Shown piece by piece: positions 3,737 to 26,848 of a DNA stretch of 64,000 bases (positions are counted from its first letter, which is position 1; each line of letters starts with the position of its first letter). The position numbers and the translations under genes are program-made. A model generated the notes under the pieces. It was not told the origin of the DNA. It made no database searches and saw nothing but the letters and a program-made list of their open reading frames with translations. Source of the stretch: an uncultured Cellvibrionales bacterium (GTDB taxonomy: Bacteria; Pseudomonadota; Gammaproteobacteria; Pseudomonadales; GM7GCV1). The DNA is taken from NCBI GenBank assembly GCA_913063225.1, contig CAJXYP010000005.1, positions 1 through 64,000 of the forward strand. Direction: 5' to 3'.

Positions 3737-6547
3737 GTGCAACCCTTTAGTCCATTTGTAAAACGTCATATCGGTATTTCTGAAACTGACGAATTGTCCA
3801 TGCTATCCAAAATAGGTGTCGCCAATCGAGACGAACTTATTCAAAAGACAGTGCCGGAAAGTATTCTAAAAAAAGACAAAATGGATTTGGCTTCTGGCAT
3901 TTCAGAAGCAGCTGCACTAGCTGAGATTAAAGCCCTAGCTGATCAGAATCAATTAGCCAGCAATCACCTGGGCCAAGGCTATTATGGTTGTCTTACGCCA
4001 CCGGTAATACAAAGATTAATACTAGAAAACCCCGGTTGGTACACCGCTTATACACCTTATCAGGCGGAAATATCCCAGGGCCGTTTAGAGATGCTGCTGA
4101 ATTTCCAGCAGATGATTTGTGATCTAACTGCCATGCCCGTGGCGAACGCTTCATTATTGGATGAAGGCACAGCCGCAGCTGAAGCTATGGCTATGGCCAA
4201 GCGCACACAACGAAAAAACAAATCAAACTGCTTCTTTGTCGACCAAAACTGTCATCCGCAGACCATTGCCGTAGTTAATACACGAGCCAAGCACTTCGGA
4301 TTTGAAGTGGTAGTTGGCGATGTTCAGCAAGAAATACCTGCGTGCTTCGCGGTTTTGATTCAATACCCCGGTTCCTGTGGTGAGGTCATTGACCCTAGAC
4401 CGGTAATTGCCAAGACTCATGAGGCTGGTGCACTGGCCATTGTCGCAACCGACTTATTGGCCCTAACTCTGCTTACTCCTCCAGGTGAGATGGGTGCAGA
4501 TATTGTTATTGGCACTAGTCAGCGCTTAGGCGTTCCCATGGGCTTTGGCGGACCTCACGCTGCTTTTTTTGCCTTTCAGGATAGCTTTAAGCGTTCAGCT
4601 CCGGGTCGCATTATTGGCGTATCTGCAGATAGCCGCGGCAGGCCCGCACTGCGTATGGCCATGCAAACACGCGAGCAACATATTCGTCGTGAGAAAGCCA
4701 CTTCGAACATCTGTACTTCTCAAGTGTTACTAGCAGTGATTGCCGCAGCCTACGCTGTCTATCACGGGCCTGAAGGTCTTAAGGAAATCGCTCTTTCGAC
4801 ACACAATCTCTGTAGCCGTTTAGCTGCGTCTTTGAAATCAGCTGGTTTTGAGCTAAAGCATGAACATGCCTTCGATACTCTTGAAATAAACACCGGGAGC
4901 CGAACCTCTGAGCTAGCGGCCACGGCAGAAGCTAAGGATATAAACCTAAGAGTTTTGGACCAATCCCTTTGCGTTAGCTTTGATGAAACCCATGGTGAAT
5001 CGCACCTAGACGCGCTATGTGAAGTCTTTGCTGTATCCGTTGAAAAAGACGCTGGGTCCTTATTAGCGGATGATCTGGTTCGCACCAGTGGCTATTTAGA
5101 GCATCAGGTTTTCCACCGTTTCCGTAGCGAAACAGAGTTTATGCGTTACCTGCAGCGCCTACAAAGCAAAGATTTGGCATTAGACCAGGCCATGATTCCG
5201 CTTGGCTCATGCACTATGAAACTAAACGCTGCCGCCGAAATGCAGCCTATTAGCTGGCCTCATTTTTCTCAGATACACCCCTTTGCGCCGGCTTCGCAAA
5301 CTCAGGGCTATTTGGAATTAATAAAGCAAATGGAGCAGATGCTTTGTGCCTGTACTGGATATGACGCCGTGTCAGTGCAACCAAATGCAGGATCACAAGG
5401 AGAATATGCGGGTTTGTTAGCTATTGCGGCCTATCACAAGAGCCGTGGAGACGATCAGCGCAAGATATGTTTAATCCCTGAGTCGGCTCATGGAACTAAT
5501 CCAGCCAGTGCACAAATGGCGGGAATGCTGGTGGTAGTTGTAGCCTGTGATGACAATGGCAATGTCGACCTATCCGACATGAAAGCCAAAGCAGAACTGC
5601 ATAGCAATGAATTGGCAGCGGCAATGCTGACCTACCCATCTACCCACGGTGTATTTGAAACCGCTATTCAAGAGATATGTGAGGTACTCCATAACCATGG
5701 AGGCCAGGTATATATCGATGGCGCTAATTTGAACGCAATGGTTGGTTTGGCAGAGCCGGGCAAGTTTGGCGGCGATGTATCTCACCTCAACTTACACAAA
5801 ACCTTTTGCATTCCTCATGGCGGTGGTGGCCCAGGTGTTGGCCCTATAGGCGTGAAGCAGCATTTGGCAGAGTTTCTGCCTGCAGACCCCAATGATCCTG
5901 AATCAGGTTCAGATTGCGTTTCCTCAGCGCGCTGGGGTTCGGCTTCAATCTTGCCAATTCCCTGGATGTATATTCGTATGATGGGTGGGGCCGGCCTTAA
6001 AGCTGCTTCGGAAGTTGCCATTCTGAGCGCCAATTACATAGCCACTCGCCTGCAAGATGCCTACCCGGTGTTATATCGAGGGGCCAATGGCTTTGTAGCT
6101 CACGAATGCATATTGGATATTCGTCCACTTAAAGCGCTAACGGGTATCAGCGAGGAAGATATCGCGAAACGCCTTGTGGATTATGGCTTTCACGCTCCAA
6201 CCATGTCTTTCCCTGTGCCGGGCACCCTTATGATAGAACCGACAGAATCGGAATCTTTATCGGAGATAGACCGTTTCTGCGAGGCTATGTTGAGTATTCG
6301 CGCTGAAATTGAAAAAGTCGCTCAGGATGAGTGGACTATTGAGGATAACCCCTTGGTTAATGCGCCCCACACTTTAGACGATATAACCGATAATGAGTGG
6401 CAACACCCTTATACAAGAGATGTCGCGGTTAAGCCCAGTCCATACCAAAGTCAGCACAAGTATTGGCCGGCAGTTAATCGAATAGACAATGTATTGGGCG
6501 ATCGTAATCTAGTTTGTAGCTGCCCACCTCTTAGCGAATACCTATAG
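3737..6547 (+). CDS. gcvP: Glycine dehydrogenase (decarboxylating), P protein
   Basis: The P protein of the glycine cleavage system decarboxylates glycine on PLP and passes the aminomethyl group to lipoyl-GcvH. At 936 residues it is a full-length fused (alpha plus beta) form. [14 protein letters not shown] and SQGRLE mark the N-half; [15 protein letters not shown] and [18 protein letters not shown] mark the C-half, with the Schiff-base lysine at K688. Translation starts at GTG; no ATG fits the family N-terminus. gcvT and gcvH are not beside it, and the 130-base leader shows no glycine riboswitch. Its TAG stop lies at the edge of the 20-bp repeat that precedes mtaD. Confidence 0.96.
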
Positions 6548-22954: not shown

Positions 22955-22976
22955 ATCTAGATATCTAGATATCTAG
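22955..22976. repeat. Palindromic ATCTAGAT microrepeat
   Basis: ATCTAGAT is repeated in tandem with an 8-base period (2.75 copies), each unit being its own reverse complement. It spans the convergent 3' ends of the cyclotransferase and rluB and includes the rluB stop. No T-tract follows, so a terminator role is doubtful. Confidence 0.6.
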
Positions 22977-23842
22977 CTTTCAGATTTCTTGGCTTTTGGT
23001 GCTCTTGAAATTTTTGGTGCTTTGGGCGTAACCACCTTAATCAGTGATTTAATCTGAGCATCAGTACAATCATCAGCTCGACCTCGAATAGTTTTAGAGG
23101 GTAATAGGATGGGGCCAAAACGCACTCGTTTTAAGCGACTCACCTGAACATCCTGAGATTCCCAAAGGCGCCGCACTTCACGGTTTCTGCCTTCCATCAG
23201 CGTTACAGTAATCCATCGGTTACTGCTGTCGATTTCTTCATCCAAAGTAATATCAGTGAAGCGCGCCACACCGTCTTCAAGCTCAACGCCCTTTATCAGA
23301 CGATCAATCATAGACTGGTCGACCTTACCGAAGATTCGCACTCGATATTCACGGTCAATTTCTGAAGAAGGGTGCATTAGCTTATTGGCTAAATCTCCAT
23401 CCGTGGTAAGCAACATCAAGCCGGTAGTATTTATATCTAACCGCCCTACCGCTACCCATCGGCCGTTAAGCACTTTGGGTAAAGAATCAAAGATGGTTTT
23501 GCGCCCTTCAGGGTCTTTGCGAGTACAAACCTCACCCTCGGGCTTGTTGTACATAATTACGCGCGGCGGTTCCTTTGATGAGGCCGTCGTGACCACGATA
23601 TTGCGCCCATCCATTTGAATTTTCTCGTGGCCGCTAACCCGATCTCCCAACTTGGCTGGTGTGCCATCTACCGTGACCCGGCCTTCGTTGATAACGGTTT
23701 CTAGCCCACGACGCGAACCCATACCTGCACGAGCCAATACTTTCTGTAGTTTTTCGGTAGTGTCAGTTTCCTGTTGTTCAGGAGTTCTCGGGGTATGCTT
23801 ATTAGGCCGACGGACTGGTTTACGCCAAACTTTGTCATTCAT
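22973..23842 (-). CDS. rluB: 23S rRNA pseudouridine synthase RluB
   Basis: Forms pseudouridine at position 2605 (E. coli numbering) of 23S rRNA. It has an S4 RNA-binding domain (about 30-75, [14 protein letters not shown]) and the catalytic [10 protein letters not shown] with the nucleophilic aspartate. The C-terminus is basic and low in complexity ([14 protein letters not shown]). It overlaps the end of folA by 4 bases (ATGA), closing the yciO-scpA-scpB-folA-rluB set. Confidence 0.93.
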
Positions 23843-24363
23843 ACGCTTTTCATTCCTGCAGACTTTTTATCAGCTACCGGCACTTGAGCCGTTTCCGGCA
23901 GCCAAATTTCATAGCTGTAATTAATATTAGATTGGAATTCTTGTGAAAAAACCCGAGAGAATTTACTGGGTATTTCAGGGAAAGAGATATCGCCTTCAAC
24001 TTCTTTGTGAATGCGAGTTAGGTGTAAAACTTCGGCTTTATCAATTAGCTCGCAGTAGATCTGCCCACCACCTGCAACAAAGGCATGATCAGTAAGCTCT
24101 GAGAGCGCCTCAAGGGCCGAATCTATGGAGTTAAACACCGATACGTCTGGATCATTCGATTGGTAGCCATTCGCGGAAATAACCGCAAATTTGCGATTGG
24201 GGAGCTTGCCCATGCTTTCAAAGGTTTTTCTGCCCACTATCAGCCATGAATTAAAGGTCAGGGCCTTAAAAAGTAACTGTTCGCCATTGGCGCGCCAGGG
24301 AATATCTAGGCCATTGCCAATTAGGTCGTTTTCAGACCGGGCAGCTATTAAAGAAAGTTTCAT
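23839..24363 (-). CDS. folA: Dihydrofolate reductase, DfrA1-like
   Basis: DHFR reduces dihydrofolate with NADPH. The 174-residue sequence is much closer to the mobile trimethoprim-resistance DfrA1/DfrA5 group, as I remember them, than to E. coli FolA: it shares [23 protein letters not shown] and SNINYSY. The active-site acid is Glu (E28, equivalent to E. coli Asp27), and the next residue is Gln (Q29), as in DfrA1. About 18 extra C-terminal residues ([12 protein letters not shown]...) follow the usual end. It is clearly chromosomal, overlapping scpB by one base and rluB by four. No attC site or integrase is present. Trimethoprim insensitivity is an inference. Confidence 0.92.
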
Positions 24364-25181
24364 CAGTGGACTGACTCATCCTTGGGTGGCTCTTCATCAG
24401 ATTCGGGTTCTGATTTAAAGTCTTCAGTAGGCTCTTCATAGGATTGAGGAATCTCATCCATTTCTTCTTCAGCGCGGTCTTCTGGCAATTCATCAGAAGA
24501 GTCAGACTCTTCATTTGATTCTGCTTCCGACCTTGCTTCCGGTCCTGTCAGGGCACCGGCCTCGCGTTCGGCGTCTTCTACTGCAGCAAGTTTTTCCAGT
24601 TCTGCTTGCTCGTGCTCTACTTCTAGTGCGAGTTCGGGGTTTATATCCGCTAGATCTTTAATCTCACTAAGCGGCGGTAAATCTCCGAGACGAGTTAGAT
24701 TGAAGTAGTCAAGGAACAGACGTGTAGTGGCATACAAGGCTGGCTTGCCCGGTACGTCTCTGTGGCCTACTACCCGCACCCATTCACGCTCCAGTAAGGA
24801 TCTAACGATATTTGAACTTACCGCAACACCACGAATCTGCTCGATATCGCCACGAGTAATGGGTTGGCGATAAGCAATAATGGAAAGCGTCTCTAAAAGA
24901 GCTCTCGAATATTTTGGCGGTTTCTCGTCCCATAACCTGGAAACCCAGGGTGCCATATCTTCACGTACTTGCAGGCGATATCCACTAGCCACTCTTTTCA
25001 GCTCATAGCCTTTATCGGCGCATTCAGTATCCAGGTCTTCTAGAGTTGCCTTGACTTCATCGCGGGCAGGACGCACTTCTTCATCACCGAAAAGATGAAG
25101 CAACTGATCTATAGACAAAGGCCGGCCTGCCACAAGCAGCGCACCCTCAACAACTTTTTTCACTAAATCCATATCGGACAT
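24363..25181 (-). CDS. scpB: Segregation and condensation protein ScpB
   Basis: ScpB is the winged-helix KITE subunit that binds ScpA in the Smc condensin complex. The conserved core is at residues 1-185 ([43 protein letters not shown]). The final ~80 residues are an acidic, Glu/Ser/Pro-rich tail not needed for the fold. It overlaps folA by 1 base. The matching smc gene lies at 53.5-57.0 kb, so the complex is complete in this window. Confidence 0.94.
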
Positions 25182-25220: not shown

Positions 25221-26051
25221 TCAACCCTCACGAGCTTTTATGTGAATCATCCCAAAGGGTTCGCCCTGAGTGATTTCTATCAGGGACTCCTTAATGAGCT
25301 CCAGTATCGCCAAAAACGTAACCGCAACACCCAGTCGACCCTCTTCTGCTGTAAACAGTGACACAAAGTCGACAATCTTACCGCCTTGTATTTGATCCAA
25401 GACCATTGCCATGCGTTCTCTGGTAGATAGCGGCTCCTGGCTTATCTGGTGGCTGCGGTACATGTTGGCGCGATGCATAACCTCACTAAAAGCCAGTAAC
25501 AACTCACGCAGATCTACTTCCGGGTGAGGAATCTTCTTAGGCATATCCGGCAGAGATATTTCCGCGGGAAATACATCCCTGCCTTGACGGGGCATCTGGT
25601 CAATATCTTCAGCAGCGTCTTTAAAACGCTCGTACTCCTGAAGCCGCCGGATCAACTGTGCACGTGGATCTGCTTCTTCGTCTTCTTCCTCTGTATGACG
25701 AGGCAACAACATTCGGGATTTTATCTCTGCCAGCAAAGCTGCCATTACCAAATACTCAGCCGCCAATTCAAAACGCATGGATTCCATGGTTTCGATGTAC
25801 TGGATATATTGGGTAGTTATCTCACTAACATTGATTTCGAGAATATCCAGGTTTTGACGCCGGATAAAATACAGCAGCAAATCCAAAGGACCTTCAAAAG
25901 ACTCTAGAAACACCTCAAGTGCATCTGGCGGGATATATAGATCTTTTGGTATTTCAGTGACCGCTTCGCCCTGCACTACCGCAAAAGGCATCTCACCCTG
26001 CTGTGGTGATTTACGATTTGTTGCTGGAGATGGCTGTGGCTCTTCGGTCAT
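25221..26051 (-). CDS. scpA: Segregation and condensation protein ScpA
   Basis: ScpA is the kleisin that bridges the Smc heads. The core has FEGPLDLLLYFIRRQNLDILEI and AAEYLVMAALLAEIKSRMLLP at the N-terminus, and a C-terminal winged helix. I start it at the ATG 26051, seven bases after yciO (MTEEPQPSPATN); a longer frame reaching 26132 would overlap yciO and adds a poorly conserved N-terminus. The 276-residue length is typical. The next gene is scpB after 39 bases. Confidence 0.92.
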   Translation of the reverse strand: MTEEPQPSPATNRKSPQQGEMPFAVVQGEAVTEIPKDLYIPPDALEVFLESFEGPLDLLLYFIRRQNLDILEINVSEITTQYIQYIETMESMRFELAAEYLVMAALLAEIKSRMLLPRHTEEEDEEADPRAQLIRRLQEYERFKDAAEDIDQMPRQGRDVFPAEISLPDMPKKIPHPEVDLRELLLAFSEVMHRANMYRSHQISQEPLSTRERMAMVLDQIQGGKIVDFVSLFTAEEGRLGVAVTFLAILELIKESLIEITQGEPFGMIHIKAREG

Positions 26052-26058
26052 GCTGGAA

Positions 26059-26685
26059 TTATACGGCAGCGAAGTCAGAAAAATCGCCCTTTCCTTGACG
26101 AATAAGCTGAGGGACGGCATCAGACAAATCAATTACCGTAGTTTCCTCTATACCTGCGTATCCACCATCGATAATCAGATCAACCTGCTGCTCAAGTATT
26201 TCACGGATTTCCCAAGGCTCACCCATTGGAAGTTCGTCCCCTGGCATCAGCAATGTACTTGAAACCATTGGCTCTCCTAAGTCCGCCAATAGATCCCAAA
26301 GGATCGGGTTTTGCGGCACGCGCATTCCAATTTGTTTTCGTTTACCTGAGTGAAGGCGTCGCGGAACCTCTTTTGTCGCTTCTAGGATAAAAGTAAAGGG
26401 CCCTGGTGTGTGCGCCTTAAGCTGTCGAAACACCACATTGTTTACCCGCGCATAGGTCCCGAGCTCGGATAGATCCCGGCAAACCAAGGTAAAAAGATGT
26501 TTTTCATCGAGCTGTCGGATTCGGCGTATGCGATCCAAAGCATCCTTGTCCCCGATATGGCAGCCAATGGCATAGGCCGTATCCGTTGGGAATACCACAA
26601 CGCCACCCTGACGAATGATATCCGTTGCGCGGTTAATCAAGCGCTTCTGGGGGTTTTCAGGATGAATAGAGTAGTACTGGCTCAA
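26059..26685 (-). CDS. yciO: YciO family (YrdC/Sua5-like) protein
   Basis: A protein of the threonylcarbamoyl-AMP synthase superfamily, but of the YciO branch, whose role in tRNA t6A synthesis is not settled. The sequence matches E. coli YciO through SIHPENPQKRLIN, FPTDTAYAIGC, FTLVCRDLSELGTY and IGMRVPQNP. The TTG at 26685 gives the family N-terminus and 208 residues; an in-frame ATG at 26769 would add 28 hydrophobic residues not seen in YciO. Neither has a good ribosome site, so the start is uncertain. It heads the scpA-scpB-folA-rluB set. Confidence 0.85.
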   Translation of the reverse strand: MSQYYSIHPENPQKRLINRATDIIRQGGVVVFPTDTAYAIGCHIGDKDALDRIRRIRQLDEKHLFTLVCRDLSELGTYARVNNVVFRQLKAHTPGPFTFILEATKEVPRRLHSGKRKQIGMRVPQNPILWDLLADLGEPMVSSTLLMPGDELPMGEPWEIREILEQQVDLIIDGGYAGIEETTVIDLSDAVPQLIRQGKGDFSDFAAV

Positions 26686-26848
26686 AGTAGAATTGATCAG
26701 AATTAGAAGCGGCGGATTATACCGACACGGAGACGAAAATATCTTTTTAAAAAGAGTCAGGCTATTCATCGATTAAATACAAACTAGCTCTGACACCGCC
26801 GTAAAAAATCCCTAAAATAGCTCGCCTTCCAATTTAGAAACTCCAGTA

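Follow-up and report, generated by a model that had tools for sequence, protein, structure and literature searches.

How does an enzyme of the kind known from mobile trimethoprim resistance come to be encoded within a chromosomal operon, and what does it do there? The question is raised by a 64,000-nucleotide stretch of DNA from an uncultured Cellvibrionales bacterium (the window), in which an intact open reading frame of 174 codons runs from ATG to stop on the minus strand (23839-24363) between scpB and rluB. A sequence-only reading had described its product as DfrA1-like and far from FolA, the ordinary dihydrofolate reductase (DHFR), and had placed the gene natively within the scpAB-rluB operon. 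The features concerned are as follows.

26059..26769, minus strand: Sua5/YrdC (TsaC-like) gene (PF01300), head of the co-directional run
25221..26051, minus strand: scpA (PF02616), its start put by inference at the Met of MTEEPQPSP; the mechanical ORF extends to 26132
24363..25181, minus strand: scpB (PF04079), directly upstream of the DHFR gene
23839..24363, minus strand: DfrA1-type DHFR, 174 aa, the genome's only DHFR
22973..23842, minus strand: rluB (S4 and PseudoU_synth_2 domains), directly downstream of the DHFR gene
24277..24282, minus strand: codons of Glu28-Gln29, counterpart of E. coli Asp27-Leu28; the D27E/L28Q pair found in trimethoprim-resistant DfrA enzymes
24202..24207, minus strand: site of a one-residue deletion in the DfrA1 group, located by alignment as a gap at E. 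coli position 52
23842..23895, minus strand: C-terminal tail, residues 157-174, confined to the window species

The resemblance to DfrA1 was borne out by profile, structure and tree comparisons alike. The product matches PF00186 at 125.7 bits (gathering score 25), and scores 92 bits with the FolA model PRK10769 against 247.6 bits (E 4e-74) with NCBIfam trim_DfrA1_like (NF000330), 2.4 bits short of that model's cut-off of 250. Searches of plasmids by tblastn and pairwise comparison gave about 56-63% identity to DfrA1, 5, 6, 14, 15, 16, 17, 27, 31 and 46, 63% being the highest to any clinical DfrA tested; identity to FolA is about 35%. The best PDB matches are DfrA1 (206 bits) and DfrA5 (192 bits), while variants of E. 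coli DHFR score about 75-85 bits, and the AlphaFold prediction (pLDDT 91) is nearest DfrA1 in fold, at 60% identity and a TM of 0.97 on target length. Glu and Gln do occupy the equivalents of E. coli Asp27 and Leu28, as had been proposed. The window DHFR also has in common with all DfrA1-group proteins a one-residue deletion that is missing in the next nearest lineage, the argS-linked DHFRs of family f40 (same order), which read SIGRPLPGR where the window has SMGK-LPNR. Two trees, in which every row but that of E. coli FolA came from fetched DNA, place the window DHFR in a clade with DfrA1/5/14/15/16/17/27 (100/99; 100/100), apart from FolA. By these comparisons the ORF is one encoding a DHFR of the DfrA1 type.

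We regard it as very improbable that the gene is instead an ordinary FolA in which Glu-Gln arose by convergence, or that it is an artefact of assembly. All that favours either is that the genomes are drafts; convergence is contradicted by the common deletion, the 100/100 clade and DfrA1 as best structure match, and an artefact by the same junction in three separate genomes. A phage origin was also considered and set aside: the closest phage record belongs to a P1-like phage whose dfrA is 59% identical, and every other falls below 40%.

A search for a second folA returned a single PF00186 match in the window genome (G000), which is 96.8% complete, and likewise one in its congener G001. ThyA is present and ThyX absent in G000, G001 and a second congener, G002. 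ThyA produces dihydrofolate, hence the need for a DHFR. A sole DHFR in genomes with ThyA and without ThyX indicates that the window gene is a working enzyme, and it is almost certainly the housekeeping DHFR of the genus as judged from gene content. It would reduce the dihydrofolate made by ThyA to tetrahydrofolate with NADPH.

The gene is tightly fitted into its operon. It overlaps scpB by 1 base (24363, TGATG) and rluB by 4 (23839-23842, ATGA), as had been read from the sequence, and is presumably co-transcribed with scpA, scpB and rluB. The order sua5-scpA-scpB-DHFR-rluB, with the neighbours named by Pfam, recurs identically in G001 (assembly ERR2094175_bin.199, an uncultured Cellvibrionales bacterium, whose locus is L002), where the DHFR is 67% identical to that of the window. 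Profile searches of G002 found neither DHFR nor ScpB. The contig carrying its rluB (82% identical to the window's) starts inside the end of a DHFR ('YSYEIWHSSGQ*', about 25 bp ahead of rluB), so the gap in G002 is an assembly break. By sequence, then, a DfrA1-type gene is at the same place in three genomes of the genus, a sample of three draft assemblies in which G002 contributes the last DHFR codons only. This chromosomal order, kept in all three, and the lack of any attC-like core or matching inverted repeat adjoining the window gene, agree with the proposed chromosomal setting and set the gene apart from mobile dfrA genes, which travel on cassettes, transposons or plasmids. The C-terminal tail, which had been offered as a marker for tracing the lineage, does not serve as one: the long tail is absent from the DHFR of both congeners, and its residues 164-174 are predicted to be disordered (pLDDT <50).

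Was the gene always there? Elsewhere in the order, in G005, G006, G018 and G037, scpB directly adjoins rluB with no DHFR between them. A family mate, G004, has the order thyA-folA-X, with a folA product that is an ordinary DL-type enzyme, and G385, from another family of the order, likewise has folA behind thyA. In G000 and G002, thyA is followed by 332 or 295 bp and then X, the gene that stands behind folA elsewhere; no folA remnant was found behind thyA in G000 or G001, and G002 gave only an insignificant match. The junction empty in other families, together with a thyA-linked folA kept by the family mate and lost here, argues that the gene was acquired. We propose that the ancestor of the genus gained it by horizontal transfer, that it was set into the scpB-rluB junction, and that it then displaced the ordinary thyA-linked folA. 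That the genus acquired its DfrA1-type DHFR at this junction, lost the thyA-linked folA and came to use the newcomer as its housekeeping enzyme appears likely to us. The description of the gene as native thus holds since the genus arose and fails for the time before.

The acquisition appears to be old. DHFR GC is 44% in a window of 47%, and 55% in a contig of 57% in the congener; GC3 also tracks the host in both, while marine cassette DHFR genes have a GC of 36-40%. This adaptation of DHFR composition to each of the two hosts speaks for long residence. Protein divergence between the two species is 34-42% for DHFR and RluB, which would make the arrangement far older than trimethoprim; a dN/dS attempt found dS saturated in three of four genes, the window DHFR among them. 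Probably, then, by the measure of this divergence, a DfrA1-type enzyme did housekeeping in wild bacteria long before the drug.

Natural relatives of the enzyme were found in two other settings. Eight genomes, from Marinomonas, Moritella, Motilimonas and Vibrio, carry a DfrA1-type gene as a second DHFR alongside ordinary FolA. Several of these copies (in Marinomonas, Moritella and Motilimonas) have a GCGTTAAC or GCGTTAGC core about 20 bp ahead of their ATG, a spacing that the clinical dfrA1 cassette has as well, and L005 and L006 have attC-like inverted repeats. The marine cassette enzymes are 69-71% identical to DfrA6, and nearer to DfrA6/A31 than to the window enzyme; on these identities marine integron cassettes stand nearer, as natural relatives, to the clinical dfrA genes than the window genus does. 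The second setting is a chromosomal Glu-Gln DHFR linked to argS and widespread in family f40 (for example L137:6002-6481, L138:6282-6779 and L125:1501-1977). Of the 15 f40 genomes tested, 11 have it as their only DHFR, and this lineage too is predicted from its active-site residues to be naturally trimethoprim-insensitive.

Further members and relatives of the group came to light along the way. In G264, of family f30 in this order, the sole PF00186 match is a DfrA1-type gene (L142:5533-6012) with 73% identity to DfrA1; behind the thyA of G264 there is no folA but a 766 bp gap without remnant (L151:2338-3103). Its assembly is listed at 6% contamination, and it is apparently a second, independent displacement of folA. 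G381 encodes, in addition to ordinary FolA, a divergent DfrA1-group DHFR (L108; L141:5653-6261, minus strand) that is 49-56% identical to all others; its branch is long and its place in the tree unsure. In G385, which belongs to the window's order, the product of L107 (L143:1687-2160) is 98% identical to DfrA1, and its leader and downstream sequence match the clinical dfrA1 cassette. A Bacillota DHFR from a Lachnospiraceae MAG (L012, match 5001-5444) has Glu-Gln at 27/28; in the tree it is a basal branch of the Glu-Gln clade, close to DfrA12.

From where, then, did the genus obtain its gene? The reading that we lean towards, while holding it tentatively, is that it captured a marine dfrA cassette whose attC was lost as the gene took up housekeeping. 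We favour it because the genus gave up its own folA for this gene, and because DfrA1-group members elsewhere are nearly all cassette-borne or accessory, among them the Marinomonas, Moritella and Motilimonas copies that stand behind integron cores in genomes with an ordinary FolA. The apparent second displacement in G264 points the same way, as does a partial integron integrase on another contig of the window genome itself (G000:C7:71461-71913; L177, ORF 5513-5929), covering profile positions 166-315. Against capture, the window gene has neither core nor inverted repeat beside it, and no supported nesting places it inside the cassettes. It may alternatively be, although we think this rather unlikely, that the window gene and the cassettes descend separately from old chromosomal Glu-Gln DHFRs like those linked to argS. 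The Glu-Gln enzymes, DfrA12 and the Lachnospiraceae sequence do form one clade apart from FolA (99/95; 100/98), with the argS-linked genes, so often the sole DHFR of their hosts, as nearest chromosomal outgroup; but a long stem leads to the DfrA1 group in both trees (1.3-1.4 changes per site), and since the argS-linked enzymes also lack the deletion, the link is a distant one.

The reverse direction, in which the DfrA1-type integron cassettes had their chromosomal source in this lineage, or in some near relative now extinct or not yet sampled, strikes us as unlikely. Its gene is the only one of the DfrA1 group found fixed at one chromosomal place genus-wide as sole DHFR, and in two trees the cassette and clinical forms together make up a clade that leaves the genus outside as its sister (99/85; 81/77). 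Once DfrA6/31/46 are added, however, the order within the DfrA1 group loses its resolution, and AU tests of six arrangements rejected none (p 0.15-0.39), so the tree does not decide between donor and recipient. Identity to clinical DfrA proteins also stays at or below 63%, and the genus itself apparently gained the gene. That the genus holds the very lineage from which the DfrA1-type cassettes first mobilised is, in our judgement, slightly more doubtful still. The earlier suggestion of a dfrA reservoir is accordingly not upheld, the marine cassettes being closer to DfrA6/A31. Were the genus the donor, the chromosomal source of some of the commonest clinical trimethoprim-resistance genes would lie here.

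The consequences for trimethoprim can be gauged from work on the clinical enzymes. The D27E/L28Q pair occurs in 67% of DfrA proteins and lowers the trimethoprim affinity of E. coli DHFR 98-fold; Ki is raised >1300-fold in DfrA1 and >300-fold in DfrA5, and the E. coli double mutant falls short of the DfrA1 level, resistance depending on further regions of the protein as well (Krucinska et al. 2022, PMC9106665). With Glu and Gln in place of Asp27 and Leu28, as in DfrA1/DfrA5, the window enzyme is therefore predicted to bind trimethoprim weakly, and these bacteria are probably intrinsically insensitive at the target.

In its portions drawn on here, a survey of where dfrA genes come from (Sanchez-Osuna et al. 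2020, PMC7725336) reports chromosomal relatives for dfrA20, dfrA26 and dfrDGK, and none for the large DfrA1 clade. Our literature search, in which subscription journals were thinly covered, turned up neither a chromosomal DfrA1-type enzyme described as a sole DHFR nor a paper joining dfrA1, folA and Marinomonas; the arrangement may be new to the literature. The implication is that a Glu-Gln active site can serve housekeeping, and that its origin was not a response to the drug. Denser sampling of marine gammaproteobacteria makes the origin of these trimethoprim-resistance enzymes testable.

DfrA1-type or Glu-Gln DHFRs thus occur in three natural settings: as the sole DHFR of a genus, in marine integron cassettes and in an argS-linked chromosomal lineage. 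With DfrA1, DfrA15 and DfrA17 (NF000330) the window enzyme shares Glu-Gln at 27/28, the deletion before LPNR, the NINYSY-IW ending and the fold; at 59-63% identity it differs from them in being chromosomal, in an operon, the sole DHFR and without cassette or attC. FolA of the E. coli type has the same fold and reaction, but only about 35% identity and Asp27-Leu28, and in both the family mate and G385, of another family, its gene follows thyA, whereas the window DHFR lies elsewhere. The marine cassette DHFRs and plasmid DfrA6/A31/A46 resemble the window enzyme in their 60-62% identity, the same residues 27/28 and their marine hosts; unlike it, the cassette enzymes are second copies, several behind an integron core site. 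The argS-linked DHFRs of f40 match the window in Glu-Gln, in being mostly the sole DHFR and in a conserved chromosomal place, yet are 41-46% identical, without the deletion and at another locus, with argS upstream.
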